In this document: piece by piece, positions 13,432 through 32,100 of the stretch
Layout of the letters: the number at the start of each line of letters is the position of its first letter
How positions within the stretch are numbered: the first letter of the stretch is position 1
NCBI GenBank assembly: GCA_013205085.1
Contig: JABMLH010000001.1
Coordinates: forward strand, 186,001 to 250,000
Length of the DNA: 64,000 nt
Source: Microbacteriaceae bacterium VKM Ac-2854
Lineage (GTDB): Bacteria; Actinomycetota; Actinomycetes; Actinomycetales; Microbacteriaceae
Reading direction: 5' to 3'
Program-made: the position numbers and the translations under genes
Notes under the pieces: model-generated
The model's database searches: none
What the model was told of the DNA's origin: nothing
The model's input: only the letters and a program-made list of their open reading frames with translations

Positions 13432-13641
13432 TTACTCGCCGACGCCGCGGATGTTCGCGGCCTGCGGGCCCTTGCGGCCCTGCTCGACGTCGTACTCGAC
13501 GTGCTGGTTCTCGACGAGCTCGCGGTAGCCCTGCTTCGCGATTGCGGAGAAGTGCGCGAAGACGTCGGCGCCGCCGTCGTCGGGCGCGATGAAGCCGAAG
13601 CCCTTTTCGGAGTTGAACCACTTAACGGTGCCAGTAGGCAT
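13432..13641 (-). CDS. CspA-family cold-shock protein
   Basis: This 69-residue single cold-shock domain has the RNA-binding motifs KGFGFIAPD (RNP1) and DVFAHFSAI (RNP2) and the opening [16 protein letters not shown]. Such proteins act as single-stranded nucleic-acid chaperones. The ATG at 13641 is followed upstream by a long region without genes, where a structured 5' leader of the kind that regulates csp genes could lie. Confidence 0.97.
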
Positions 13642-14216: not shown

Positions 14217-14651
14217 GTGGACGGCGAGGACGCGGGTGCTTTCGGCGCGACGAGGAGGGACGTCTCGGAGGAACGCAAGATCGCGCAGTGGCCGCTGACG
14301 GTTCGGGCGCTGGCCGAGGCGGTGACCGAACTCGAGGAGATCGCCGCGGGAGGTCGACGAGGCTTCTTCGCCGACGACGCTGCAGGGAGGATGGCTCGTC
14401 GGGCGGCGAAGTCGGCGCTGATCGACCTGGGGAATGCGGCGTTCTTCGTGCCGACGCCGGAACTGATCCGGTTCTCGTATGTGCCATGGGCGAATCTGCG
14501 CCAGACGCGCGACAAGCTGGCACATGTCTACACAGGCACCGACTGGACGACGATCTGGCGGGTCATCGCCGAACTGCTTCCGACCGACGCGCGCCGCTTC
14601 CTCGATGAGGTGGCCGGCGAGTACGGTGATGAGGGAGAAGGAGGCGCTTGA
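14217..14651 (+). CDS. hepT: HepT-like HEPN RNase toxin
   Basis: This 144-residue, mostly helical protein carries RDKLAHVY (R-x4-H-x-Y) near residue 98, the catalytic motif of HepT HEPN ribonucleases. It is followed at once by a MntA-type nucleotidyltransferase, the classic gene order of the HepT/MntA toxin-antitoxin. In that system MntA adds AMP to the Tyr of the motif and blocks the RNase. The start is GTG at 14217, and its stop overlaps the mntA ATG (TGATG). The pair sits at the edge of the defence-like island. Confidence 0.82.
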   Translation: MDGEDAGAFGATRRDVSEERKIAQWPLTVRALAEAVTELEEIAAGGRRGFFADDAAGRMARRAAKSALIDLGNAAFFVPTPELIRFSYVPWANLRQTRDKLAHVYTGTDWTTIWRVIAELLPTDARRFLDEVAGEYGDEGEGGA

Positions 14652-14956
14652 TGACTCTGCCCTCGACCGCACTCGCGGAGCACCGTGACGAGTTGCTCGA
14701 TCTGCTGCGTTCGCGTGGAGTGACCACAGCGGTCGTGTTCGGCTCAACTGCCCGTGGTGAGGACATCGAGGGTTCGGATCTCGATGTCGCCCTGAGACTC
14801 GCTGACCCGGGAGACGGTTGGGACTACTTCCGGATCTGGGGTGAGCTGCGCGACGACATCGCTCGCACGCTGGGTGTTCCCGCGGATGTGGTCTACCTCG
14901 ACGATCCCGGCGCCGACCGGGTGGTCACCGACGTCCTCCCGCTGCTCCCCGGCTGA
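14651..14956 (+). CDS. mntA: MntA-like minimal nucleotidyltransferase antitoxin
   Basis: This 101-residue protein has the signature FGSTARGEDIEGSDLDVALR (GSxxRG...SDxD, about residues 32-51) of MNT-superfamily nucleotidyltransferases. In the HepT/MntA pair it AMPylates the toxin. The ATG at 14651 overlaps the hepT stop, giving tight coupling; a TTG one codon earlier is a poorer choice. It converges with the giant helicase gene, with only six bases between the stops. Confidence 0.85.
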   Translation: MTLPSTALAEHRDELLDLLRSRGVTTAVVFGSTARGEDIEGSDLDVALRLADPGDGWDYFRIWGELRDDIARTLGVPADVVYLDDPGADRVVTDVLPLLPG

Positions 14957-14962
14957 GGCCGC

Positions 14963-17900
14963 CTACGCGCGGATCAGCTCGCCGTCCTCGCGCAGCCGCC
15001 CGTCCACCAGGGCCAGCTCCAGGCCGCGGCGCAGCTCGGCGGCACTGTTCGCGGTGACGCGCTTGCCGCCGAAGACCGCGAGCGTCGCCGAGAGCAACTC
15101 GGGTCGGCCGATGCCGCCGCTGGCGAGCACGATGTCGGCCATCGCGTTGGCGATCTCCTGGGGCGAGACCATGTCGATCGCCCGCGCCGTGCCCTCGGCC
15201 GGAACGCGGTAACCGCGCCAGGTCGCCGGGTCCAGGCTCTCGGGCCAGACGTAGCGGGCGCCGTCGCTGGTGACGGTGAGCGCCTCCGGCAGCAGTCGCA
15301 GGATGGACTGCGCCCGCGGCGCGCTCACGGTGCTCAGGCCGAACGCGTTGGCGACGTGCTTCGAGAGCGTGCCGACGTGGATCGGCCCCTCGGCGTTGAC
15401 CACCTCCAACAGCACGGCGCGCACGGCGCTGGCGCTGCGGGCGGAGGAGAGGGTGTCGAGCACCTCGATGCCGCCGGTCGGATGCGGCAGCCACGACACG
15501 TACGAGGTCGCGTTCGGGCCGTGGCTCGCACGGGCGTCGGCCACGGGCTCGCGGGCGTCGCGGGCGTCGCTGAGATCGTCGCGCAGCGGGGCGTCGACGA
15601 CGGCCGGGGCATCCTCGACCACGGGGGCATCCTCGGCGGCGGCGGCGGCGTCCTCGACCACCGGGGCATCCCCGACCGGGGTCGCCGGAGCCGCCGGTCG
15701 CGGGTTCTCCGCCGCCTCCGTGAGTCGCGCGAGCACCGCATCCGCATCCGCCAGCCATTCCGGCAGCCAGACCCGCTCCACGGCGGGCCAGTGCATCAGC
15801 TTCGAGAGCACCTCCAGCGGCAGGCCGTCGCGATCGGCGACGGTGCGCCGGGCGGCCCAAGCCGGACCGTCCAGCAGCACGGCGAGCACCGGAGCCTCCG
15901 GCGCGGACGGCAGCGCGACCGCCAGGTCGACCCGGAAGTCGGACAGGCCGACGTCGGTGCGAACGGCGAAGCCGCGGGAGCGCAGAGCCTCGGCGATCTG
16001 TTCGCGGTGCCGGTCGGTGGTGGCGGTCTGCGCGAGCGAGCCGAGCGTCGCCTCCGCGCCGTTGCGCGCCAGCTCGAGGTAGGCGCGGAGGTGCTTGATG
16101 CCCACCGAGCTGGTCTCGTCGGCGCGCAGATCCGCCGGATCGAAGCTGGAGAAGAGCACCACCTGACGTCGGGCGCGCGTGATCGCCACGTTCAGCCGGC
16201 GCTCGCCGCCGAAGCGCGTCAGCGGCCCGAAGTTCAGCGGCAGCACCCCCTTCTCGTTCGCGCTGAACGCGGTGGAGAACAGGATCGCGTCGCGCTCGTC
16301 GCCCTGCACGTTCTCGAGGTTCTTCACGAACAGGCCGTCGACGGCGTCGAGAGCGTCCACGATGCGCTGGTCACCCGCATCGCGCAGCAGCGACTCGATC
16401 AGGGTGCGCTGCTGGGCGTTGAACGTCACGACGCCGAGCGACGGCACGGCGTCCGCCGAGGCGCGGAACCGGGCGATGATCTCGTCGACGATCGCGTCCG
16501 CCTCCGCCCGGTTCGTGCGCAGCGTCTTAGCGGGACCGGTGCGCAGGAAGGTGCCCTCGACCCGCCGCCAGGAGACGCCGTGGCCGCCGGCCCCGGAGTC
16601 GATCGTGCCGTGCGAGGGCGACGGGAAGGAGGTGAGCTGGTTCTCGTAGTAGAACCGGTTCGAGAAGGCGATCAAGGATTCGTCCTGCGAGCGGTAGTGC
16701 CACGAGAGCCAACGGCTCTCGACCCGCGACTGCACGCATTCGGAGAGGATCGACTCCTCGTCCTCCGTGGCCAGCTCGCTGCTGTCGAAGACGTCCTCGT
16801 CGTCGCCGGAACCGGGCTCGGCGAAGCTCGTGGGCGGCATCTGCTTGCTGTCGCCGACCACGACCACCGAATTCGCGCGGCCCATCGCGCCGATCGCGTC
16901 CGCGACCCGCACCTGCGAGGCCTCGTCGAAGACCACCACGTCGAACAGCTCGCCCTGCGCGGGGAAGAACCGCGCGACCGAGTCGGGACTGACCAGCACG
17001 CACGGGGTGACCTGGGTGATCAACTCGCCGAACTCGATCATCAGTTCGCGCACGCTCAGACCGCCGCGCTGCCGGTCGAGCTGACGGCGCAGCAGACCCA
17101 CCTGGCCGCCGTCGGTGTTCGGGTCGAAGCGGCGTCGGCCCAGCAGTTCGTGCGGGATGGCGCGGGGCAGCTCGCCGCGGAGCTGTTCGGAGGCGTCGGC
17201 GAAGCGGGCGATCGCGCGGCCGTGCGCGACGGCGTCGAAGCTCTCCAGGCCCGTGCTGCGCGCGCGCTCGGTGCGGGCGGCGGCGGCGAAGCCCCGCTCG
17301 AAGGCGCGGATAGCATCGTCCGCCGGCACATCGCCCGGCAGCAGGGCGTCGGCCGCCGCGCCGAGGCCCGCGGCGCGGAGGGGCTGCAGCGCCAGCAGCC
17401 AGGCGATCCAGGCGGCGACGGGGACGGATCCGCTGCGCTCGCTGTCGCGGCCCGCGCGGCTGCTCCACCAGGCCTCGAGCACCGGGCGGTCGCCGAGCCA
17501 CGCCCGCCAGCCCTCGGGCGACGAGGAGGCCGCGATCAGGGCGGCGACGGCCTCGCCGACGGCCGCGACGCGCGCGGCGGCCTGCGGATCCGCGGGGCGT
17601 TCGGTCACGGCGTAGGAGGAGAGCGCGGAGCGGAATCCCGACTCACCCGCGTCGCCACGGGGCGCCGTCGCGCTCGCGAGCCAGCGCATCCAGCGCAGCT
17701 GCTGCCCGAGCTCGTCGGCCTCCGCCGCGACCAAGGGGTTCCAGCCCGGCGCGACGCGCAGACCCGCGGTGGTGTTCACCTGCGATCGCAGCGCCGATAC
17801 CGCGTCGTCGAGGTCGACGAAGCGCTGCGTGATCTGCGGCAGCAGCTTGAGGTTGAGCGTCTGCCCGGTGTTGAGCACGCCGGCGAACTTCTCCGCCACG

Positions 17901-20900
17901 GCGCGGCGGCGACCCTTGCGGCCGAAGAAGCCGGATTCGTGCGCCGCGACGGCCTCGGCGTGCAGCCGCTTCGCGTCCACCGTGAGCACCTGCGGGCCGA
18001 CCTGTGCGAGCACGTCGCCGAACTGGGCGGGCAGCCGGGCGAGATCGTGCTCGATCTGCTCGGTCGACTGGCTCCAGAACGGCGCGCGGGTCGCGGCCAG
18101 CGTCTCCAGCGTCAACGGAACCGCGCCGGCCAGTGCCGCGAGCGCCTGGAACTGCTCGGGGCCCCGCGCCTCGACCAGCACGCGGTTCAGCTCCTCGGTG
18201 GGCTTCAACGCCTCGATCGCGGCGTCGAGCGTGCGGGCGGCGGCGTCGATCCGCTCGGCGGCGGCCGCATCCGTGCGCTCGACGAAACCCCACGGATGCT
18301 CGCGGGCGGGCCGGGCCGGATCGGCCCGATCGGGTAGCTCGCGCAGCACGGCACGCAGGGTCGTCAGCTCGGCGGCGGTGATCCGCCCCGCCCATTCGAC
18401 CGGCACGGGCAGCGCGTGCGGTGCATCCGCGGTGGCCAACTCGGCGCCGCGGGCCGCGTAGAAGCTCAGCCCCGCGGGATTCGGCTCGTGCAGTCGGTTC
18501 GTGTAACGCGCCAGCGAGCGGCGCGCGCCGTCGATGGTGTCGCTCGCCGCCTGCATCCCGTCGGCGTCGACGCCGGTGCGCTGGGCGAGCGACGACTTGA
18601 GCTTCTGCCGCACGACCGCGGGCTTCGAGCCCTTGTCGTGCAGGTCGAGCGTGAACGGTTCCAGCCCCACGCTCGCGAGCCGGCGCTGCACCACGTCGAG
18701 CGCGGCGCGCTTCTCGGCGACGAAGAGCACCTTCTTGCCGTCGGCGATGGCCTTGGCGAGCAGGTTGGTGATGGTCTGCGACTTGCCGGTGCCCGGCGGG
18801 CCTTCGAGCACGAAGGTGCGCCCCGCGCTCGCGGCCGCGACGGCGGCGAGCTGGGAGGAGTCGGCGGAGACGGGCAGCCGGGTGAGCAGTTCGTCGAGGT
18901 CGGGCGACGGGTCGGCGCGGGCGGCGGCCGGGTCGGCGAAGGCCTCTGCCGGGGTCTCGATCAGGTGCCGGACCAGCGGGTTGGCGGCCAGCGCCTCCCA
19001 GTTCTCGTCGAGGTCCTTCCAGAGCCGGAACTTCGCGAACTGCAAGATGGCCAGGTCGACCGTGGGTTCGACGTGCGCCGTGAGGCCCGCGCCGGCGATG
19101 GCCTCGCGGACGGAGCGCATCGCGGCGGTGATGTCGATGCCCGCGTCGTCGCTGGTCGGATTGGCGAGCCCGGGGATCGTCACGCCGGTGTCGGCGCGCA
19201 GCTTCTCCAGCAGGCAGTAGTTGGGGGTGGAGGCGCCGGCCTCGTCGAGCACGAGCTGATACGCGCCGCCGCGGCTGAGCGGCTTCATCGTGACCGGCAC
19301 CAGGATCAGCGGCGAGCGCAGGGTGCGGTCGTGGCTCTGCCAGACCAGCGAGCCGATCGCCAGGTAGAGGTTGTTCGCTCCCGACTCCTCCACGATCGTG
19401 CGGGCCTTGTACGCCAGCGCGCGCATCCGGGTCGGGTAGCTCTCGGTGCTGACGTCGGTGTACAGCTGGCGCTTGCTGCGGAACAGTTCGAGCAGCGCGT
19501 CCGCGCCGAGCTCGCGGCCGAAGCGGATGCCGCGCTGGCGATCCACCGCGGCGAGCTCGTCCGAGGGGATCAGGGTGACCGCTTTGCCGGTGTTGATCAG
19601 GTCCTCGAACTCGGCGACGGCCTCCTCCGGAACGCCGAGCGGGAAGCGCGCGCGGTCGGTGAAGTTGATCAGACGGTTGCGCAGGCTGAGGTCGAGCAGC
19701 GCGTTCTTCCAGCGCGCCACGCGCGGAGGAGCCAGAGTGCGCTCGGTGGCGGCGGCGCGGTGTTCGGGGACGAAGGCGACCGCCTGCGAGTGCGCCGGGG
19801 TGTACTCGACGACGGTGACGGATCCGTCGGGCGCGACCGTGCGCGCCGGCAGCGGCAGGATGCGGCTGCGACGGGCCTGGTACACGTCGGTCACGCCGAC
19901 GACCTGGGCCAGGTCGCCGCGCAGGTACTTCTCCCGCGGTGCTCGCTGCAGCTCGGCGAGTTCGTGCTCGGACTCGTCGGTCAGCATCGTGGTCTCGAGC
20001 ACCCGGATCAGCTCGAGGTCGACGTAGTTGACGATCGGCGCGACCTCGGTCTGCGCCGGCGAGGCGAGGCTCTGCTCCTCCCGCCAGTAGCCCACGAAGG
20101 CGTGGCCCTCGACGACGAACAGCAGCGGGCGGATGCCGACGCGTTCCAGCGCGGCGGCGAGCACCACGGTGGTGTCGAGGCAGGTGCCCAGACGGCCCTC
20201 GAGCACCTCCTCGGGCGTGCGCACCTTCTGGCCGTCGTCCGACCAGCTGGCCGGCGGCACGCTGTAGCGGATCCGGCGGGCGCGGACGGCGCGCAGGATC
20301 GCGGCGACCGTCTGGTCGACCCGCTCGGGCCCCTGCTGGTAGCCGACGAGGTCGGCGGATCCGGTCTCGGCCTGCAGATGCAGGGTCGCCTCATCGATCA
20401 GCGTGCCGAGGGCCGGGTGGTTGGGCTGCACGTGCGCGGCGAGCAGCTCGAGCGACATCGGCAAGGGGCGGGCGACCCACTGCTGGGCGGCGAGCAGCAG
20501 CACCGGCTTCGTGGCGCGCGCGACCGCTGCGCCGTTCGGTGCCGTGACGGTGGCGGTCACGGTCGCGGGCCGCGCCTCCTCGATGCCGAGCATCACGGCC
20601 GGATCCGCACGGATGTCGAGCTGCGGCACGATCGTCTCGGACGGGGCCTCGGCCAGATCGACGAACCGTTCTGCGGTGGCGACCACGGTGCCGTCGGCGG
20701 TCGCGATCTCGACGCTCAGTCGCGCGCCGCGGACCGCCTCACGGCCGTTGCGGATGCCCAGCTGCGAGATCACGGTCAGCCGGTTGTGCGCCATCGCGTA
20801 AGAGAGCACGTCGGCGCAGTCGAGGTCGATCTCGGCCGGCAGGGCGTCGCCCGAGCCGTACGCGACCCAGGTGCCCTCCGGGGCGTCACCGCTCGCGGAC

Positions 20901-21235
20901 TCGATGCCGAAGCGGCGCAGGACGGCCGTCGCCGCCGATCGCAGCTGCTCGGCGGGCCCGTCGTCGCGGACCAGCCGCAGCAGCTCCTCCGCCGTGCGCG
21001 TGCCGGCGCGGCCGAGGCGATCATCGAACGGCCGGCCGAGCGGGCCGAGGGTCTCGGTCAGGGCGCGCAGGACGAGCTCGGGATCGCGCGGATCCGAGCC
21101 GGACTTGTTGGCGAGCAGGGCCGTCCACGGCATCCCCTCGCGCAGCTTCGGCTGGAGCTCGGCCGCGAGCACGGGCTCGATCGCGTCGACGAACGCGGCG
21201 AGTGCCCGCTCGACGTTCTCGGTGTTGCTGGTCAC
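14963..21235 (-). CDS. Giant transglutaminase-like/DUF4011/SF1 helicase/REase/DUF3320 protein (Hhe-like)
   Basis: The 2090-residue protein begins with a helical segment, then a transglutaminase-like fold with GTCLDTTVVLAAALE (Cys352) and VEGHAFVGYW (His378). A DUF4011-type region around 560-800 follows (WKNALLDLSLRNRLINF). Next is an SF1 helicase with Walker A GPPGTGKSQTITNLL (Lys818), Walker B VVVFDEASQV (Asp1437-Glu1438) and C-terminal motif ITRARRQVVLFSS. A Vsr/MTES_1575-like nuclease domain lies near 1755-1830 (DFRVDLAV, LLDGPAWAARRT), and DUF3320 closes the protein. DUF4011-helicase-Vsr-DUF3320 is the architecture of the single-gene anti-phage system Hhe. GTG at 21235 follows GGAGAG. An Ala/Glu/Asp/Val-rich linker (DAPVVED repeats) precedes DUF3320. 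Confidence 0.9.
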   Translation of the reverse strand: MTSNTENVERALAAFVDAIEPVLAAELQPKLREGMPWTALLANKSGSDPRDPELVLRALTETLGPLGRPFDDRLGRAGTRTAEELLRLVRDDGPAEQLRSAATAVLRRFGIESASGDAPEGTWVAYGSGDALPAEIDLDCADVLSYAMAHNRLTVISQLGIRNGREAVRGARLSVEIATADGTVVATAERFVDLAEAPSETIVPQLDIRADPAVMLGIEEARPATVTATVTAPNGAAVARATKPVLLLAAQQWVARPLPMSLELLAAHVQPNHPALGTLIDEATLHLQAETGSADLVGYQQGPERVDQTVAAILRAVRARRIRYSVPPASWSDDGQKVRTPEEVLEGRLGTCLDTTVVLAAALERVGIRPLLFVVEGHAFVGYWREEQSLASPAQTEVAPIVNYVDLELIRVLETTMLTDESEHELAELQRAPREKYLRGDLAQVVGVTDVYQARRSRILPLPARTVAPDGSVTVVEYTPAHSQAVAFVPEHRAAATERTLAPPRVARWKNALLDLSLRNRLINFTDRARFPLGVPEEAVAEFEDLINTGKAVTLIPSDELAAVDRQRGIRFGRELGADALLELFRSKRQLYTDVSTESYPTRMRALAYKARTIVEESGANNLYLAIGSLVWQSHDRTLRSPLILVPVTMKPLSRGGAYQLVLDEAGASTPNYCLLEKLRADTGVTIPGLANPTSDDAGIDITAAMRSVREAIAGAGLTAHVEPTVDLAILQFAKFRLWKDLDENWEALAANPLVRHLIETPAEAFADPAAARADPSPDLDELLTRLPVSADSSQLAAVAAASAGRTFVLEGPPGTGKSQTITNLLAKAIADGKKVLFVAEKRAALDVVQRRLASVGLEPFTLDLHDKGSKPAVVRQKLKSSLAQRTGVDADGMQAASDTIDGARRSLARYTNRLHEPNPAGLSFYAARGAELATADAPHALPVPVEWAGRITAAELTTLRAVLRELPDRADPARPAREHPWGFVERTDAAAAERIDAAARTLDAAIEALKPTEELNRVLVEARGPEQFQALAALAGAVPLTLETLAATRAPFWSQSTEQIEHDLARLPAQFGDVLAQVGPQVLTVDAKRLHAEAVAAHESGFFGRKGRRRAVAEKFAGVLNTGQTLNLKLLPQITQRFVDLDDAVSALRSQVNTTAGLRVAPGWNPLVAAEADELGQQLRWMRWLASATAPRGDAGESGFRSALSSYAVTERPADPQAAARVAAVGEAVAALIAASSSPEGWRAWLGDRPVLEAWWSSRAGRDSERSGSVPVAAWIAWLLALQPLRAAGLGAAADALLPGDVPADDAIRAFERGFAAAARTERARSTGLESFDAVAHGRAIARFADASEQLRGELPRAIPHELLGRRRFDPNTDGGQVGLLRRQLDRQRGGLSVRELMIEFGELITQVTPCVLVSPDSVARFFPAQGELFDVVVFDEASQVRVADAIGAMGRANSVVVVGDSKQMPPTSFAEPGSGDDEDVFDSSELATEDEESILSECVQSRVESRWLSWHYRSQDESLIAFSNRFYYENQLTSFPSPSHGTIDSGAGGHGVSWRRVEGTFLRTGPAKTLRTNRAEADAIVDEIIARFRASADAVPSLGVVTFNAQQRTLIESLLRDAGDQRIVDALDAVDGLFVKNLENVQGDERDAILFSTAFSANEKGVLPLNFGPLTRFGGERRLNVAITRARRQVVLFSSFDPADLRADETSSVGIKHLRAYLELARNGAEATLGSLAQTATTDRHREQIAEALRSRGFAVRTDVGLSDFRVDLAVALPSAPEAPVLAVLLDGPAWAARRTVADRDGLPLEVLSKLMHWPAVERVWLPEWLADADAVLARLTEAAENPRPAAPATPVGDAPVVEDAAAAAEDAPVVEDAPAVVDAPLRDDLSDARDAREPVADARASHGPNATSYVSWLPHPTGGIEVLDTLSSARSASAVRAVLLEVVNAEGPIHVGTLSKHVANAFGLSTVSAPRAQSILRLLPEALTVTSDGARYVWPESLDPATWRGYRVPAEGTARAIDMVSPQEIANAMADIVLASGGIGRPELLSATLAVFGGKRVTANSAAELRRGLELALVDGRLREDGELIRA

Positions 21236-21557
21236 GTGTCTCTCTCCGCTCGCTCGGCTCCACCGTAAGCCGGGGCACCGACATCGGCGGTGCTCCGCGC
21301 CGATGGCCGGCGGGCTCGGGGCGGATCCGGGGCGGATCCGGGGCGGCTGCCTCCGCGGAAATGCAGGGTGAGCGGCGATGTTGACGTGCGCATCCGCTTG
21401 TTCCACCCTCATTTCCGTCCCGACCCTGTATTTCCCTCCCGACCCTGTATTTCCGCAACGGCCAGGCGGGCGAGAAGAAGCGCGAAAGTTCTGCGGATTT
21501 GTCCTAACAAAGTCGGCTAGGCTCGGCGGACAGACACCGACGTCCGAAGGGGCCGAC
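21236..21557. other. 322-base divergent intergenic region
   Basis: It holds promoters for the giant helicase and the GNAT-AAA gene. It contains a short tandem run of GGGGCGGATCC (about 21318-21345) and family D repeat copy 2. No gene is seen. Confidence 0.7.
21353..21455. repeat. Family D palindromic repeat, copy 2
   Basis: The left arm CCGCGGAAATGCAGGGT (21353-21369) is identical to copy 1. The right arm ACCCTGTATTTCCG (21442-21455) is preceded by another partial copy at 21423. The loop keeps ACGTGCGCATCCGC and CCTCATTTCCGTCC from copy 1. This copy lies between divergent genes, so it cannot serve as their terminator. Confidence 0.85.
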
Positions 21558-22835
21558 ATGACCAGCTGGCGCATCCGCGACTACCACGCCGACGATGTCG
21601 ACGGCATCCTGCGCCTCTGGGAGCAGGTCACCGCCGCCGATTCGGAACCCGTGTACAACCTGGCCGAGGTGCTCGCCTCCTGCGCGAAGGACCACGCGGT
21701 CGTCGCGGTCGTCGGCGACCAGGTCGTCGGCGCCGCGGTCGGCCGCGCCGCGCACGCGCAGGGCTGGGTCGTGTTCCTCGCGACCGCGACCGATTCGCAG
21801 GGCCAGGGCATCGGATCCTCGCTGCTGGCGGCGTTGGAGGCGCGGATGGCGCCGTTCGGGATGTCGAAGCTCTCGGCGCTGATGCCGGCGGCGGAGACCC
21901 GGGTCGGCGCGTTCCGGCACCAGGGCTTCGAGCAGAAGCAGAACCTGCACTACTTCGAGCGGCACATCCCGGTGCAGCGGGAGGAGCTGAAGCTGCTCGC
22001 GGAGCTGGGCGGACGCGTGCTGCCGCGCGGACTCTGGGACGGCGTCGGCGGCATGACGGCCGAGAAGGAGATGCTGGAGCGGCGCCTGGTGATGCCGCTC
22101 GCGCAGCCGCAGCTGGCCGAGCGTTTCGGCGTCGCGCCGCCGCGGGCGGTGGTGCTGTTCGGCCCGCCCGGCACCGGCAAGACCACCTTCGCGAAGGCGA
22201 TCGCCTCGCGGCTGGAGTGGTCGTTCGTGGAGGTGTTCCCGTCGCGGCTCGCGTCAGATCCGGCGGGGCTGGCGGGCGCGCTGCGCGAGACCTTCCTCAA
22301 GATCAAGGACCTCGAGCATGCGGTGGTCTTCATCGACGAGGTGGAGGAGATCGCCTCGCACCGGCAGGGCGAGCCGCCGTCGCCGACGCAGGGGGTGACC
22401 AACGAGTTGCTGAAGATCATCCCGGCGTTCCGGGAGCAGTCGGATCGGCTGCTGATCTGCGCGACCAACTTCATCCGCGCGCTGGATTCCGCGTTCCTGC
22501 GGCACGGTCGTTTCGACTACGTGATCCCGATCGGGTTGCCGGATGCCGAGGCGCGCACCGCGATCTGGGAGCGGTACATCCCCGCCGCGGCCGTCGACAT
22601 CGACCTCTCGGTGCTGGTCGGGATGAGCGAGGGCTTCTCGCCCGCCGACATCGAGTACGCCGCCCGCAAGGCCTCGCAGGCGGCCCTCGAGAGCGCCGTC
22701 TACGCCGGCGGCGCGGATGCCCGAGGCCCGGCCCTCGACGACTACGTCGCCGCGATCGCCGCCACCCGCACCACCGTCTCCGCCGAGACCGCCGCCGAGT
22801 TCCTCGAAGACATCAAGACCGTCGGCCGCCTCTAA
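21558..22835 (+). CDS. GNAT acetyltransferase-AAA+ ATPase fusion
   Basis: This 425-residue protein joins two domains. Residues 1-150 form a GNAT acyltransferase, with the acetyl-CoA loop TDSQGQGIGSSLL and a C-terminal GFEQKQNLHYFER strand. Residues 160-420 form an AAA+ ATPase of the proteasome/spastin type, with Walker A GPPGTGKTTFAKAIA (Lys208), Walker B VVFIDEVEEIA (Asp260-Glu261), sensor ATNF, and the arginine-finger region FLRHGRFDYVI. The ATG at 21558 follows AAGGGG. It converges on the metacaspase gene. The AAA+ part could remodel a target and the GNAT part could modify it; that pairing with the neighbouring proteases is inference. Confidence 0.9.
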   Translation: MTSWRIRDYHADDVDGILRLWEQVTAADSEPVYNLAEVLASCAKDHAVVAVVGDQVVGAAVGRAAHAQGWVVFLATATDSQGQGIGSSLLAALEARMAPFGMSKLSALMPAAETRVGAFRHQGFEQKQNLHYFERHIPVQREELKLLAELGGRVLPRGLWDGVGGMTAEKEMLERRLVMPLAQPQLAERFGVAPPRAVVLFGPPGTGKTTFAKAIASRLEWSFVEVFPSRLASDPAGLAGALRETFLKIKDLEHAVVFIDEVEEIASHRQGEPPSPTQGVTNELLKIIPAFREQSDRLLICATNFIRALDSAFLRHGRFDYVIPIGLPDAEARTAIWERYIPAAAVDIDLSVLVGMSEGFSPADIEYAARKASQAALESAVYAGGADARGPALDDYVAAIAATRTTVSAETAAEFLEDIKTVGRL

Positions 22836-22843
22836 CAGAAACC

Positions 22844-22889
22844 CCCGCGCCAGGGAACAAGCGCCACGCGCGAAGCGCCGTGGCGCGGG
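22844..22889. terminator. Hairpin between convergent GNAT-AAA and metacaspase genes
   Basis: CCCGCGCCA (22844-22852) pairs with TGGCGCGGG (22881-22889), and GCGCCACGCGCG lies in the loop. It sits eight bases after one stop and eight before the other. Confidence 0.6.
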
Positions 22890-22897
22890 AGATCCCC

Positions 22898-25054
22898 TCA
22901 GCTCTCCAACAGCTTCGCCGTAGCCCGCAAGAACTCCGCGATCGCGCTCGTCCGATCCGTCCGTTGCACGCTCGATTCCGCGACGGGAGCGACCGCCGCG
23001 ACAGCGACGGGACTAGCCGCAACACCAGCCGCAGCCCCCGCAGCCACTCCCGCCTCCCGCTCCTCCACCGGCACCGGCGCGAGGAACAGCCGCGCGTTCG
23101 CCCGCCCGCTCTGGTACTCCCACAGTCCCGGCACCTGCTGGTAACCGGACGGCGGCACCAGCGCCGCCTTCACCTGCTCGGCGAACTCCGCGTTGGTGAC
23201 CTTCCCATCCGCCGCGGCGAGCAGCGGCACGGCCGCCCCGGTGAAGACGCCGCCGCCGTGCACCTCCAGCGCGGCCTCATCGGGTCGGCACGCGCTGAAC
23301 AGCAGGGCGTTCACCGGTGCGAGCCGGGTGACCTTCGGCGGGTTCCCGCGCAGTCTCCGGAACGCCGCCTGGGCGGGCTCCAACTGATCCACCCAGCGCA
23401 CCCGCACCCGGTCGTCCTCGCTCACCGGCTCGTTCACCGCCTTCGCCCGCAGCCGGGCTCCCTCCCCGGTGACCGAGCGCTCGCCGCGGATCCCGCTGCC
23501 CGAGTGGCACGAGTCGAAGAACGTGGTCACGTTCACGCCGGGTCGGATCGCCTGCCAGATCTCCGCCAGGTCGTCATCGAGGATCACCTCGCCCAGGGCG
23601 GCGCCGTGCGGGACGAGCGCCTGGTCCCGCGGCAGCTTCGCCGGGGTGAGCAGTTCGTCTCCGTCGAGGTCGGGCATCTCGGTGCCGTGCCCCGAGTACT
23701 GGATCGCGACCACGTCGCCGGAGCGAGCGCTGGTGACCAACTCCGTCATCGCCTTCAGGATCGCGGGGCCGCTCGCCTGCGCATTCGTCAGGGTGGTCAC
23801 CTCGTCGAAACCGAGTCCGCGGAAGGCCTCCGACCAGCGCTGGGCGTCGGCCACGCAGCCGCGCAGCGGCACCGTGACGTACTCGTCGATGCCGATGCAC
23901 AGCGCCCGCCGCGTGCCGGACCCGGTCGAGCGCTGCTGCACGGCCTCGACGTCCTCCGGCATGCTGCGCCGGCGCGGCGCCGGGAACGCGGTCGGCGCGG
24001 CCCCGCGGATCCGCTGCGCCACCGACTCCATGGTCGGCGCGTCGTTGTCGAAGTCGCCGTGCGCCCGCGCAGCGCTGCGCCGCCCCGGCCCCGCGTCGCT
24101 GGGCGACCAGACCACCTCCGCCATCCCCGGCGTGCCGTTGAGGCCGAAGGTGCTCGCCAGCTCGGTCACCGACGTCACCGAGTCCTGCAGGCCCACGATC
24201 GGCGAGGAGCGTTCGACCTCGAACGCCCGACTGACCAGGTACAGCAGCGACTTGCGGTACACGCCCATGCAGGTGTCGTCGTGTTCCGCCCGCTCGGTCA
24301 TCGTGAACATCGTCAACTCGCCGATGCGCCCGTTGCTGAGCCCGTCGCGGTACTGCTCGATGAACAGGTCCGCGCGGATCGCCGGCGCGAGCAGCGAGAC
24401 GGAGTCGAAACGCAGCCCCGCGCGATCCGCCACGGGGAGCCAGTGCGCGAGGAAGATCGACCCGGCGCTGTGGCCCACGCCGTGCAGGGCGATCGGATGC
24501 GTCTTCGCGAAGGCGCCGAGAAGCTGCGCGAAGACGCTCGCCCCGGCGCCCGCCGCCGAGGACCGCTCCGAATTCTCCTTCATCGTCGTCCACAGATCGC
24601 GGCCGAGCACGTTGCGGACCATCAGCTCGAAGGTCGGGTCGAAGAATTCGTCGGGGTAGAAGCCGCGGCCCGCGAAGCCGGAGAGCAGTTCTTTCAGCGA
24701 GCTCCACAGCCCCGACTCCCAGACGAAGAAGATCGGGTAGACACCGTTCGCCAGCCACCAGGGGATGACCGTGCGCGCGTATTCGAGGGCGCTCTCGGTC
24801 GAGACCAGGCCGCCGTGCGCGTGCAGCATCACCCGCACCGGCCCCGGATGCTCGGCCGCGAATGCGGCCAGATGCTCGTTCACCAGGGCGCGCAGTTCGG
24901 CCTCCGTGCTGCCGAAGTCGTTCGGCTTCGACGGGGCGGCCGTGCTCTTCGCGGCCAGCGCGCCCTTCTTCATGGCGACCACGTGGCGGCGCAGCAGCGC
25001 GTAGTCGTCGGGGGTGAATGCGGCGCTGCCGCGGGTCAGAGCTGTGTCGGTCAC
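22898..25054 (-). CDS. Alpha/beta-hydrolase-metacaspase (peptidase C14) fusion
   Basis: This 718-residue protein has two catalytic-looking parts. The N-terminal half resembles a serine hydrolase, with VRVMLHAHGGLVSTE and the elbow GVGHSAGSIFLAHW (Ser196). The C-terminal part, from about residue 365, is a caspase-fold peptidase: ALCIGIDEYVTVPLRGCVAD, His456 in YSGHGTEMPD and Cys516 in FFDSCHSGS, the complete metacaspase dyad. An Ala/Val-rich stretch precedes the end. GTG at 25054 follows GAGGAT. It lies 91 bases downstream of the CHAT-protease gene on the same strand, so the two likely form an operon. Signal-activated proteolysis is inferred. Confidence 0.88.
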   Translation of the reverse strand: MTDTALTRGSAAFTPDDYALLRRHVVAMKKGALAAKSTAAPSKPNDFGSTEAELRALVNEHLAAFAAEHPGPVRVMLHAHGGLVSTESALEYARTVIPWWLANGVYPIFFVWESGLWSSLKELLSGFAGRGFYPDEFFDPTFELMVRNVLGRDLWTTMKENSERSSAAGAGASVFAQLLGAFAKTHPIALHGVGHSAGSIFLAHWLPVADRAGLRFDSVSLLAPAIRADLFIEQYRDGLSNGRIGELTMFTMTERAEHDDTCMGVYRKSLLYLVSRAFEVERSSPIVGLQDSVTSVTELASTFGLNGTPGMAEVVWSPSDAGPGRRSAARAHGDFDNDAPTMESVAQRIRGAAPTAFPAPRRRSMPEDVEAVQQRSTGSGTRRALCIGIDEYVTVPLRGCVADAQRWSEAFRGLGFDEVTTLTNAQASGPAILKAMTELVTSARSGDVVAIQYSGHGTEMPDLDGDELLTPAKLPRDQALVPHGAALGEVILDDDLAEIWQAIRPGVNVTTFFDSCHSGSGIRGERSVTGEGARLRAKAVNEPVSEDDRVRVRWVDQLEPAQAAFRRLRGNPPKVTRLAPVNALLFSACRPDEAALEVHGGGVFTGAAVPLLAAADGKVTNAEFAEQVKAALVPPSGYQQVPGLWEYQSGRANARLFLAPVPVEEREAGVAAGAAAGVAASPVAVAAVAPVAESSVQRTDRTSAIAEFLRATAKLLES

Positions 25055-25145
25055 GGTGATCCTCGTCGATCGGTGTGGATGTGGGCGGTTCGGATGGTGG
25101 GTGCGGATGGGGCGGTGCGGATGGATGGTCGCTGCGGACAGGCGG
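25055..25145. repeat. GCGGATG-rich low-complexity spacer
   Basis: The gap between the CHAT and metacaspase genes contains a run of near-repeats of (G)TGCGGATG(G) and GTTCGGATGG. It may be an unstable microsatellite-like spacer in the operon; no promoter is recognised. Confidence 0.5.
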
Positions 25146-27287
25146 TCAGGGGAAGGAGACGACGGCATCGGGTTCGGCGTACACCGCGTAGGCGGCCCAG
25201 CCGGTGTCGCCGTTCGCGCGGGCGGCCGCGCGCGCGACCCGCGCCGCCTCGTGCACGGGGAGGGAGTGCCGCAGCTGCTCGTAGAAGCTCGACGCGAAGA
25301 ACGCGGCGGAGGAGTCGGGCACCGACCACTGCGAGCCGGCGAAGACGTCGACGCCGCCGCGCAGGAAGGCGGAGGCGAAGCCCGAGGTCTCCGACCAGAG
25401 CGAGCCGGCGTGGCACGCGTTCAGTACGACGACCCGACCGTGCTCGTCGGCATCGGCGCCGGCCTCCCGCAATGCCTGCTCCAGGTCGTCGCTGCCGAAG
25501 CGGTCGGGCGGCGAACCGGCTCCGGGGCCGGGCAGCAGGATCACCTGGCGCTGCGCATCCGTCTCGCTCGCCGCGCCGTGCCCGGCGAAGTGGAACAGGC
25601 CGAAGTGGCGGGCGCCGAGCAGGGCGGCCAGGTCGCCGAGGGTGGCGGGCTGCACGGGCACGGCTCGCAGGTTCGTGACCAGGTAGTCGCGCTCGGCCAC
25701 GATCGAGGGCAGTTCCTGCAGGGGCGGCTCGACCCCGCTGTAGTCCGGCGCGAGGAAGCGCAGGCCCCCGGCGTCGATCGAGATCGCGGAACGGGTGACC
25801 ACGCCGGAGAGCGCGCGGACGAGGCCGAACTCCGAGAGCATCCGTTCGCTCTCGCCGGGCACGCAGAGGATCTCCCACGGGATGCGCGGCTCGTTGGTGA
25901 CGATCGTGAGCCCCTCGAACCCATCCGGATCCGTGCGCAGTCGCTCCTGCAGCTCGGCGGGGAGGAACTGGGCGAACATCCGCTCGCCGCGCTCGCGCAC
26001 CTGGGCGGCGAAGGCGCGATCACGCTTCGACGGCGCGTCGGGATGCGCGGCCAGCGCGGCCTGCCAGGCCGCCTCCACGTCGTCGAAGAGCTCGGCGAGC
26101 AGGCTGTCGCGGTCGAGGGTGACCCGCCAGGCCTCGGTGCCGCCGAGCGTGCGCCATTCGAAGTCGATGTCGAGGGCCTCGGGCGTGCCGCCGGTGCCCA
26201 CGGAGATCTCCAGGGTCCTGTCGCGTTCCGGTCGGGCCACGAGCGGGCGGTCGTCGCGGCTCGGGGCGTCGTCGAGATCGGCACCCGCCGTCGCGGTGAG
26301 CTTCAACAGGCCGAGCGTGGTCTCGCCCTGGCGGAAGCGCAGGTGCACCTCGACCCGACCCGGGATCGGCGCCAGGAGCCGCATCGATCGGGTCTGCTGC
26401 TCGTCGCGACCCGGTACCGGGAAGTCGAGCTCGTCGAACTCGCCCTCGGGGGTCACGACGTTGCGCATCCGCAGCAGCTTGACCGTGATCCGCTCGTCCG
26501 GCTCCAGCCGGACGGGCATCAGCTGCTGGAAGTCCTCGCGCCGCGGCGCGTCCGGCCCGTCGAGGGCGATCTCCACGGTGAACGGGACGGCGGTGCGAAC
26601 GCGCGTCGGCATCCGCGCTCCCGCGGTGGCGGCGATCGTGGGTCCGGGCGGCTCGACGCGCATCTCGGCCTCGGGTCCGGCCTCCGCTTCCGCGGCGCCG
26701 ACATCCGTTTCTGCTTCCGCGGCGCCGACATCCGCATCCGCGGCCGCGTCGCCCGCGCCGAGGCCGTCCCCGGCCCCGTCGAACGGGCCGACCTCATCCG
26801 GTAGCTGCAGATCGGCGAGGAACTCGGGTTCGATCCGCACCAGCACCACGGGGAGGAGCGTCGCCGGATCCCAGGCGGATCCGATCGGCTCGCTCGACCA
26901 GCTCGGCACCGTGTGTTCCTCCGACCACGCCATCGTCGCGCCCTGCCAGCTCGGCTCGTAGGCGGGTTCCGCCATCGTGCGGAATGAGGCGGCGATGAGT
27001 TCGGTGAGCCCGGGCTCGAGGTGGATGCCGACGGCGAGGTACCCCGGCCCGGGCTCGCGGCGCTGCAACCACGCCACGATGCCGGCGGGCGCGAGCAGGG
27101 CGACCCTCTCGTCGTTCAGCGCCAGGGTCAGGGTGAGTGAGCGCGGGCTGTCGGCGAGTTCGGCGAGGTCGATCGTGCGCAGCTGCTCGGGCGGATGCGC
27201 GGCGTCCACGCCGATCGCGGCCAGGGCCGCGAGCGTCGTCGCGTAGCGCTCGTCGGCGGCGAACGTCTGCCAGGAGATGATGCTCAT
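25146..27287 (-). CDS. CHAT-domain caspase-like protein
   Basis: This 713-residue soluble protein ends in a CHAT (caspase HetF-associated with TPR) domain with HFAGHGAASET (His570) and VVVLNACHAGSLW (Cys625), then GVDVFAGSQWSVPD, the usual CHAT tail. The N-terminal 170 residues and the beta-rich middle (about 220-400) are not recognised and have no obvious TPRs. Between them is an acidic Ala/Glu/Asp linker with a repeated ADVGAAEAE unit. The ATG at 27287 follows AGAGGT. It is the first gene of the protease operon and divergent from an SDR gene. CHAT proteases act in type III-E CRISPR and gasdermin defence; this gene set is different. Confidence 0.88.
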   Translation of the reverse strand: MSIISWQTFAADERYATTLAALAAIGVDAAHPPEQLRTIDLAELADSPRSLTLTLALNDERVALLAPAGIVAWLQRREPGPGYLAVGIHLEPGLTELIAASFRTMAEPAYEPSWQGATMAWSEEHTVPSWSSEPIGSAWDPATLLPVVLVRIEPEFLADLQLPDEVGPFDGAGDGLGAGDAAADADVGAAEAETDVGAAEAEAGPEAEMRVEPPGPTIAATAGARMPTRVRTAVPFTVEIALDGPDAPRREDFQQLMPVRLEPDERITVKLLRMRNVVTPEGEFDELDFPVPGRDEQQTRSMRLLAPIPGRVEVHLRFRQGETTLGLLKLTATAGADLDDAPSRDDRPLVARPERDRTLEISVGTGGTPEALDIDFEWRTLGGTEAWRVTLDRDSLLAELFDDVEAAWQAALAAHPDAPSKRDRAFAAQVRERGERMFAQFLPAELQERLRTDPDGFEGLTIVTNEPRIPWEILCVPGESERMLSEFGLVRALSGVVTRSAISIDAGGLRFLAPDYSGVEPPLQELPSIVAERDYLVTNLRAVPVQPATLGDLAALLGARHFGLFHFAGHGAASETDAQRQVILLPGPGAGSPPDRFGSDDLEQALREAGADADEHGRVVVLNACHAGSLWSETSGFASAFLRGGVDVFAGSQWSVPDSSAAFFASSFYEQLRHSLPVHEAARVARAAARANGDTGWAAYAVYAEPDAVVSFP
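26686..26734 (-). repeat. 27-bp tandem repeat inside the CHAT gene
   Basis: GCTTCCGCGGCGCCGACATC occurs at 26686 and again at 26713, one 27-base unit apart, encoding a nine-residue acidic repeat. Being in frame, unit-number change would only lengthen or shorten the linker. Confidence 0.8.
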
Positions 27288-30966: not shown

Positions 30967-32100
30967 TCAGACGGTCTCGGGGCGCTTCTGACGCGCGGGC
31001 TCGGCGGGAGCGTCGGGTCCGTTCCAGACGGAGACGATGCCCCAGGCCACCGCGGCGATCGGCACCGAGAGCACCGCGCCGATGATGCCGGCCAGGATCG
31101 TGCCGGCGGTGAGCGCGACGAGCACGACCAAGGCGTGCAGGTTCAGCGAGCGGGCCATCACGACCGGCTGCAGGAAGTTTCCCTCGAGCTGGTTCACCAG
31201 GATCACAACGGCCACCACGATCAGCGCCTGGACGGGGCCGACGGCGACGAGCGCGACGAGGGCGGCGAGGATGCCCGCCGCGGTCGCCCCGACCAGCGGG
31301 ATGAACGCGGTGACGAACACCACGACCGCGAGCGGCAGCGCCAACGGCACCCCGATGATCCACAGCGCCACTCCGATGCCGATCGCGTCGACCGCAGCAA
31401 CGGTCGCGGTGCCGCGCACGTAACTACCGAGTACGTCCACCGTCTTGGCGCCGACGCGCTTCGCGCGGTCGTAGCGGCCGCCGGTGAAGGGGCGCAGCAG
31501 GAACTCCCAGATCTTGGGGCCGTCCTTCATGAAGAAGAACAACACCACGATCATCAGAACGAGCCCGGTGACGAAGTTGGTGGCGGCGGAGACGCCGGCC
31601 AGCGCGCCGGTGCCGAAGCTGGCGCTGGTGAGGAAGTCGGTCGCGGTGTCGACCACGTTCTGGATCTGCTCATCCGTGGGCGCGAACGGCAGGTGCGACA
31701 CGTAGTCCTGCAACTGCTTGAACCCATCGACCGCCTGATCGGCCAGTTCGCCCCACTGGTTGCGCACCGCGTTCACGATCAGCCAGATCACGCCGCCGAG
31801 CACCACGACGATGGCGGCGAGTGCGATCCAGGTGGCCCAGATCGACGCGATGCCCTTGCTGCGCATCCACCGCAGCAGGGGCGAGATCGCGGAGGCGAGG
31901 ATGAGCGCGATCAGCACCGGGATGATCACCAGGCTCAGCTGCGTCATGGCGAAGACGAGCACGGCGGCGATCGCGATGACGATCAGAACCTGCAGGCTGC
32001 GGGTGGCGAGTCGGCCGACGCCGTCACCCCACAGTCCCGGTCGCTTCTCGGGCGCCGGTTCGGCGGGTGTGGTCGGTTCGGTGCGGTCGAAGAGGCCCAT
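30967..32100 (-). CDS. AI-2E family transporter (PerM-like permease)
   Basis: This 377-residue membrane protein has about eight helices. A large soluble loop (NQWGELADQAVDGFKQLQDY to about residue 190) lies between the N-terminal and C-terminal bundles, as in the AI-2 exporter/PerM superfamily. FVTAFIPLVGATAAGILAAL and LEGNFLQPVVMARSLNLHAL near residues 285-345 are the conserved C-terminal motifs. Members export autoinducer-2 or act as Na+/H+ antiporters; the substrate here cannot be told. It is monocistronic. Confidence 0.93.
   Translation of the reverse strand: MGLFDRTEPTTPAEPAPEKRPGLWGDGVGRLATRSLQVLIVIAIAAVLVFAMTQLSLVIIPVLIALILASAISPLLRWMRSKGIASIWATWIALAAIVVVLGGVIWLIVNAVRNQWGELADQAVDGFKQLQDYVSHLPFAPTDEQIQNVVDTATDFLTSASFGTGALAGVSAATNFVTGLVLMIVVLFFFMKDGPKIWEFLLRPFTGGRYDRAKRVGAKTVDVLGSYVRGTATVAAVDAIGIGVALWIIGVPLALPLAVVVFVTAFIPLVGATAAGILAALVALVAVGPVQALIVVAVVILVNQLEGNFLQPVVMARSLNLHALVVLVALTAGTILAGIIGAVLSVPIAAVAWGIVSVWNGPDAPAEPARQKRPETV

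Follow-up and report, generated by a model that had tools for sequence, protein, structure and literature searches.

A CHAT protease gene paired with a hydrolase-metacaspase fusion in a Microbacteriaceae genome: a candidate two-gene conflict system with an exchangeable protease partner

Which of three adjacent genes in the genome of Microbacteriaceae bacterium VKM Ac-2854 evolve as one unit, and what might that unit do? The stretch analysed (the window) comprises 64,000 nucleotides, positions 186,001 to 250,000 of contig JABMLH010000001.1 in assembly GCA_013205085.1. A first-pass annotation had placed three genes at 21558-27287, encoding an AAA+ ATPase fused to a GNAT acyltransferase, a fusion of an alpha/beta-hydrolase with a metacaspase (hereafter HC) and a CHAT protease, and had read all three as one conflict system. 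The open reading frames (ORFs) were found at these coordinates and Pfam domains agreed with them. The overall interpretation held in part: the CHAT and HC genes and a conflict-type setting were upheld, while the GNAT-AAA+ protein had to be given up as a component. We put at about even the chances that HC is a latent effector and CHAT its partner protease, with activation by CHAT or of each by the other, followed by self-damage that would most likely be directed against a phage or other invader. The features concerned are as follows (aa, amino acids; loci numbered L and genomes numbered G are handles of this study).

21558..22835, + strand: GNAT-AAA+ gene, 425 aa; Pfam Acetyltransf_1 33.5 bits, AAA 92.1 bits
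22898..25054, - strand: HC gene, an alpha/beta-hydrolase-like half plus a metacaspase; 718 aa, GTG start
22901..22936, - strand: C-terminal tail of HC, EFLRATAKLLES; likeness to other tails judged by eye
23120..23911, - strand: metacaspase (Peptidase_C14) domain of HC; Pfam 79.5 bits, Metacaspase-4 in PDB at 1.6e-21
23954..25036, - strand: alpha/beta-hydrolase-like domain of HC; alignment A5, 29 sequences, 11 invariant columns
25055..25145, - strand: gap of 91 bases separating the CHAT stop from the HC start; contains degenerate repeats at 25071-25124
25146..27287, - strand: CHAT-protease gene, upstream of HC; Pfam CHAT 71.3 bits, DUF7363 32.8 bits
25188..25931, - strand: CHAT peptidase domain; Pfam residues 453-700, profile match to PDB 8tl0 at 9.2e-05
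26298..26618, - strand: DUF7363 domain of the CHAT protein (Pfam)

The CHAT-HC pair across genomes

The evolutionary unit is well supported as two genes, CHAT followed by HC. Three of the 15 genomes of the genus held both genes, adjacent to each other, and the other 12 held neither. Across the family (249 genomes), HC was detected in seven genomes, one of them (G020) with a weak hydrolase-only match, and CHAT in three, all three adjoining HC. A phylum sample of 396 genomes yielded the hydrolase family in five genomes and CHAT matches in five; only those in G000 and G092 were full length, both adjoining HC, and the other three covered the CHAT domain only. A second match in G092, likewise limited to the CHAT domain (E = 7e-10), lay far from HC. 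Every full-length relative of the window CHAT that was found adjoined an HC gene. The two caspase-clan peptidases that the first-pass annotation had seen in one operon are kept together across genomes, and are once fused.

Altogether the CHAT gene stood beside HC in six loci and was fused to it in a seventh. CHAT was upstream in five of these loci, with gaps of 91, 168, -4, 75 and -4 bases. Two of the seven were reached via the hydrolase query: L041 (Agromyces sp. Marseille-P2726), where the two genes overlap by 4 bases, and L040 (Cryobacterium cryoconiti), where a single chain of 1462 aa carries the CHAT (355-697), hydrolase (742-1088) and caspase (1131-1378) domains in succession. In L045, from another phylum (Hymenobacter sp. 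15J16-1T3B), HC comes first and is followed, 77 bases on, by a CHAT protein of 1091 aa (93.6 bits). The CHAT domain of L045 was only 22-29% identical to the others, as against 37-45% for its HC, so that CHAT may have been recruited to HC independently in this lineage.

The HC query matched 199 plasmid records, one of which (Kovacikia) covered >80% of HC; the others among the 40 matches listed mainly covered the hydrolase half, often in a protein labelled 'C1 family peptidase', or the caspase half only. The CHAT query gave one plasmid match, a partial one; the Hymenobacter plasmid concerned carries two CHAT genes, and HC is absent from their surroundings.

The distribution of the GNAT-AAA+ gene was of another kind. 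The adjacency of this gene, noted at first pass together with its opposite orientation, was confirmed in the window and also holds in G010; it is the one point in favour of a three-gene machine in which the GNAT-AAA+ protein would remodel the proteases. That proposal retains scarcely any probability and is already contradicted. The gene (+ strand) is convergent with HC (- strand), and so is not in the HC operon. Of 199 family genomes 43 carried it, spread over 24 of 85 genera and with genomes as small as 1.2-1.8 Mb among them, as against HC in 7 of 249 genomes. Five of the 15 genus genomes examined carried it at high score without the pair (G001, G005, G006, G007 and G014), pair-bearing G011 gave no full-length match, and in HC-bearing G091, G153 and G204 it was on another contig than HC. 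At L036 (G007) the same row of genes also contained one for a 4HBT thioesterase and one of the transaldolase family. Independent occurrence had been set beforehand as the result that would speak against a joint system, and it is what the AAA gene displayed. As a third component the GNAT-AAA+ protein was dropped because of its distribution, orientation and linkage, and it appears to be an unrelated neighbour of CHAT-HC. G007 also gave a further GNAT-AAA match, shorter and interrupted by one stop, at G007:C3:87956-88672.

A terminator-like hairpin at 22841-22858 separates HC from the AAA gene, although terminator-like matches (2 found against a shuffle mean of 1.4) were not above chance. The CHAT-HC gap (25055..25145) gave no sigma-70-type promoter match. 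Imperfect tandem repeats were observed in the gap at 25071-25124 (14/27-base units) and inside the CHAT gene at 26683-26753 (27-base unit).

Domains and catalytic residues

The caspase half of HC relates to solved metacaspases (best Metacaspase-4, 1.6e-21 in the PDB search), and combines a Peptidase_C14 match with a His/Cys dyad, as expected of a metacaspase. The first half gave no Pfam match in the window protein, and in none of the scanned proteins did this module correspond to a separate Pfam family; two relatives, L059 and L071, gave weak Pfam hydrolase matches. Apart from a few exceptions, the 29 relatives aligned nevertheless had in common a GHSAG-like elbow and a His further along the chain, and the serine nucleophile elbow (GHSAG, Ser196) with His332 was found in 18 of 19 HC proteins. 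On this motif evidence the first half is called an alpha/beta-hydrolase, with His332 as its putative catalytic His. Comparison of the hydrolase half with PDB profiles gave a non-significant best match (E = 0.4), centred on the elbow of a cinnamoyl esterase.

Both sites tended to be kept together. Hydrolase Ser196/His332 and caspase His456/Cys516 were all retained in 18 of the 19 HC proteins of alignment A1, which was built without L048, L053 and L074. His456 and Cys516, described as intact at first pass, are the same residues when HC is read from the GTG at 25054. This is most likely the start: an alternative ORF (22898-25168, - strand) begins at an ATG at 25168 and would add 38 aa, and this ATG is probably not used because the relatives of HC begin near the GTG. 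In a planctomycete relative (L061, 7668-10370) all four catalytic residues were lost together, and this locus was also without a partner protease. If the two activities are coupled, both sites should be lost at the same time, and L061 is one case that fits.

Additional domains and segments varied between relatives. A peptidoglycan amidase domain was found above the Pfam cut-off in L049 and just below it in L043, and by eye the N-terminus of the L045 HC resembles the amidase part of both. Tails similar by eye to the C-terminal tail of the window HC (EFLRATAKLLES) occurred in L030, L031, L032, L033, L034, L040, L041 and L074, with a weaker likeness in L014, and most others of the 22 HC proteins described below had no such tail; our guess is that the tail could serve as a docking or inhibitory segment. 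Directly before it, residues 670-688 of the window HC form an Ala/Val-rich hydrophobic stretch (19-residue mean 1.88).

Simple hydropathy scanning of 43 proteins (HC, CHAT and metalloprotease) detected no N-terminal leader, no mean within the N-terminal 40 residues exceeding 0.91. The view that these proteins are free of membrane helices was dropped, given several internal 19-residue means >1.6 and up to 2.02; such internal peaks make membrane contact possible.

The window CHAT protein carries the His/Cys dyad of its family. His570 and Cys625, which the first reading had likewise given as intact, did not vary among the six CHAT proteins aligned. The only significant PDB relative by sequence was 8tl0, an entry named SAVED-CHAT (PMC11417357), yet Pfam found only CHAT and DUF7363 in the window protein, and no SAVED domain. 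The EACC1-associated caspase model gave 16.5 bits for the window CHAT against a cut-off of 140, which leaves it outside that family, and no match to the window HC at E 0.1; among HC relatives it gave 24.5 bits in L049 and 18.8 bits in L041.

An exchangeable partner protease

The hydrolase family was found at 39 places, 22 with a caspase in the same chain and 17 in rows without one, including L051, which runs to the contig end. The figure of 22 leaves out the duplicate short loci L001-L009, L020-L028 and L062-L067. Seven of the 22 hydrolase-caspase chains had CHAT (one by fusion), 12 had a neighbouring metalloprotease and three had neither (L043, L048, which runs to the contig end, and L061), so that 19 of the 22 HC loci carry a second protease. 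The HExxH motif was kept in all 12 partner metalloproteases, which we describe as thermolysin-like on the basis of a weak Peptidase_M4 match, below cut-off, in four of the seven scanned. The 12 loci are not independent of one another: one group of close relatives consists of L033, L034 and L074, in which the metalloprotease lies on the opposite strand, and a second one of L050, L053 and L054. Genes for BTAD-type regulators were seen near the HC-metalloprotease pair in L033, L050 and L054, and a flotillin-like gene also in L033.

Copies of the metalloprotease family also occurred on plasmids, where three of 58 matching records were examined. On an Agrobacterium plasmid (L140, 3869-11818), genes for a patatin phospholipase, the metalloprotease and a protein of the metallo-beta-lactamase (MBL) fold are followed by HamA (3.9e-145) and HamB (E = 0), the metalloprotease group standing directly before Hachiman hamA-hamB. 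A Hymenobacter plasmid (L142, 2598-8345) encodes an LmuB-like ATPase (3.9e-24), the metalloprotease and an LmuA-like MBL protein (1.8e-10), which is a Lamassu-like operon with an extra protease. In the third record (L141) the metalloprotease is fused to an S8 peptidase and lies near a cell-wall hydrolase gene.

The exchange of partners bears on the order of events. In the reading that we prefer, HC (serine hydrolase plus metacaspase) would be held inactive with CHAT as its partner protease; on a trigger, CHAT would cut HC, or the HC caspase and CHAT would activate each other, and the freed hydrolase and caspase would damage esters or lipids and proteins of their own cell. Growth would stop or the cell would die, most likely blocking a phage or other invader. 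In other bacteria HC is paired with the thermolysin-like metalloprotease instead of CHAT. The order might also run the other way or be mutual, the HC metacaspase maturing CHAT, with CHAT as executioner and the hydrolase as sensor or regulator. Both the CHAT and the metacaspase sites are intact and the sequences fix no direction, as such an order allows; HC is constant, however, and the partner protease is swapped, for which a role of the partner as activator is a better fit than one as sole executioner, and we consider the opposite order clearly unlikely.

That one protease activates the other, as the first-pass annotation had also supposed, is suggested by circumstantial evidence, namely the exchangeable partners and the CHAT cascade of type III CRISPR as outlined in PMC11229360. 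Protease-released MBL nucleases of Hachiman, AVAST and Lamassu offer an analogy, by which the metalloprotease, and CHAT at this locus, would be candidates for activating a latent partner. A wider reading, which we hold only tentatively and at less than even chances, would make these loci an undescribed family of switches for cell death or immunity. In it a latent hydrolase-metacaspase, sometimes with an amidase, would meet an exchangeable activator (CHAT or the thermolysin-like enzyme, depending on the lineage) in a two-protease cascade resembling apoptosis, attack esters or membrane lipids and proteins, and share a protease network with Hachiman and Lamassu.

Other members of the hydrolase family were found in different contexts. 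Stand-alone copies were present in Arthrobacter (L042, L046, L047 and L055-L058), those of L055-L057 near a gene that we take to be glycyl-tRNA synthetase. The module was C-terminal to papain-like (C1) peptidases in L015, L016, L018, L019 and L071, and L072 was placed with these by its position in the tree. In L019 the papain-hydrolase gene lies near trypsin-like, 'YEATS-associated helix' and caspase genes. A hydrolase beside a separate caspase gene was seen in L073 (by Pfam) and in L017 (by annotation).

Genomic setting, role and known systems

The genes flanking CHAT-HC are those of a short-chain dehydrogenase/reductase (SDR) and of the GNAT-AAA protein. The pair lies at a variable site bounded by a cold-shock gene (13432-13641) and an AI-2E transporter gene (30967-32100). 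An island of ~17 kb occupied this site only in the window genome and G010, and in-house gene calls put 0-4 genes there in the other 13 genomes of the genus. Beyond the AAA gene, a protein of 2203 aa with DUF4011, helicase and restriction endonuclease-like parts (14963-21574, - strand) scored 1752 bits with the NCBIfam model 'anti-phage protein ProA', above its cut-off of 1500, and was 79-81% identical in G010; no literature source was found for what the label 'ProA' means. A HepT-like and MntA-like pair (14217-14956, + strand; MntA below the NCBIfam cut-off, with 36.4 of 60 bits) is replaced in G010 by a single gene of 139 aa. The conflict-type setting proposed at first pass is borne out by this variable island with its ProA family and HepT/MntA-like pair, and by the metalloprotease near Hachiman and Lamassu-like genes.

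Between the window genome and its sister G010, neighbour proteins were 64-100% identical, CHAT 32% and HC 43%. DNA matches of >150 bases ended at the edges of the CHAT-HC block, except for one 64% stretch in HC. Divergence of CHAT-HC beside better-conserved neighbours is as expected if the pair was replaced or changes rapidly. The copies of the window, G010 and G011 grouped in the hydrolase tree with moderate support (90/97), and this speaks for rapid change, or for exchange inside the genus, rather than for a distant source.

Such a pair could serve regulated autolysis, developmental cell death or the turnover of cell material, with defence genes nearby by chance. Consistent with a non-immune role of this kind, many HC loci lie amid genes that by eye look metabolic, BTAD regulators stand near L033, L050 and L054, and the amidase domain is above the Pfam cut-off in L049 and just below it in L043; a 2012 survey tied amidase-metacaspase proteins to autolysis (PMC3501461). 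However, the hydrolase family occurs sporadically (in 5 of the 396 genomes of the phylum sample), CHAT-HC diverges strongly next to better-conserved neighbours, and the partner metalloprotease family is placed in Hachiman and Lamassu-like loci. We judge a non-immune role improbable. In the preferred reading HC would be an effector that probably serves abortive infection or programmed cell death, and the activation order, trigger, substrates and anti-phage purpose given above for the CHAT-HC pair are proposals.

Several results weigh against the reading of CHAT-HC as a protease-activated anti-phage system. Neither CHAT nor HC had a sensor, NTPase or second-messenger domain in the Pfam scan. CHAT and HC identities across the seven pairs were weakly correlated (r = 0.39, exact Mantel p = 0.13), with r = 0.57 and p = 0.025 when L045 was left out. 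In G092 and L041 the pair has common conserved-looking neighbours, fitting vertical inheritance, and many other HC loci have neighbours that, by eye, we take to be metabolic or housekeeping genes. The phage collection held no relative of the hydrolase half and no HC match was confirmed in viral contigs. PADLOC placed CHAT and HC in no named multi-gene system, HC alone matching its general 'caspase' model, and neither protein reached any NCBIfam cut-off. The metalloprotease gave two matches in 246 phylum genomes, neither beside HC, and in G092 (L143) it lay among metabolic-looking genes; these two matches away from HC, together with the three plasmid copies with other partners, indicate that the metalloprotease family is not HC-specific. 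Gene calls in relatives came from a simple in-house caller, and the searches scored a small number of candidates in each genome, so that some genes may have been missed.

A literature search found no paper on a CHAT plus hydrolase-metacaspase pair, on single-chain HC or on the exchange of partners. The combination of an alpha/beta-hydrolase with a caspase has been published before, for VMAP systems. According to Kaur et al. 2020, whenever a VMAP protein has a caspase domain an alpha/beta-hydrolase is its neighbour (PMC7159879), and Kaur et al. 2021 count alpha/beta-hydrolases among the predicted effectors of bacterial conflict systems, with lipids as their targets (PMC8195603). The likeness lies in a caspase-superfamily peptidase working with an alpha/beta-hydrolase, and the 2020 statement is the nearest description of this pairing (PMC7159879). 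Here, unlike in VMAP systems, hydrolase and caspase form a single chain with a CHAT partner, and the hydrolases were compared by description only. The window's genome gave 0 VMAP-C matches, so that the domain protein expected of these systems was not found; VMAP-C matched in 2 of 119 genomes of the phylum sample, one above cut-off. In one genus 68 of 81 genomes matched, and none of 40 of the listed matches with flanks had a gene matching our hydrolase, caspase, CHAT or metalloprotease models; the VMAP locus of G281 is of the trypsin-like type, judged from its sequence. That CHAT-HC is a trimmed relative of the VMAP ternary systems is very doubtful.

The fusion of a metacaspase with another hydrolytic domain has a precedent in the amidase-metacaspase proteins listed in the 2012 survey (PMC3501461). 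Among the relatives of HC, L049 has the same Amidase_2-metacaspase fusion, and L043 has it with a score slightly under the Pfam cut-off; CHAT-HC differs in its hydrolase module without a Pfam family and in its partner, the word 'CHAT' being absent from the main text of that survey (PMC3501461). As to bacterial gasdermins, the genes flanking the pair carry other annotations in general scans, in which no gasdermin-specific model was run.

If the preferred reading of CHAT-HC is true, bacterial immunity and cell death would gain a small cascade of a protease and a caspase that brings a second hydrolase with it. The swapped activators, the three-domain fusion and the site-less relative would then be a natural experiment for which protease switches which.

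In the SAVED-CHAT cascade the downstream target is a caspase. SAVED-CHAT of type III CRISPR gives immunity by a proteolytic cascade, according to the account in PMC11229360, and CHAT-HC resembles it in having a CHAT protease, the cascade being a feature of SAVED-CHAT; the window CHAT differs in carrying DUF7363, with no SAVED found, and in having a hydrolase-metacaspase fusion as its partner.

A parallel to the proposed activation is offered by systems in which a nuclease is set free by proteolysis. In Hachiman, AVAST and Lamassu a trypsin acts as the partner that frees MBL nucleases, and in Canu nucleases are freed by a caspase, as set out in PMC12799240. These systems and CHAT-HC would have in common a latent effector awaiting a partner protease, with varied protease families and, in Canu, a caspase. 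CHAT-HC itself has no MBL-fold gene beside its proteases, where the flanks are SDR and GNAT-AAA, and is thus no Canu or other MBL-type pair; the effector presumed here joins a serine hydrolase to a metacaspase, and the partners are CHAT or a thermolysin-like protease. This last family may in turn be an unrecognised partner of Hachiman- and Lamassu-type loci.

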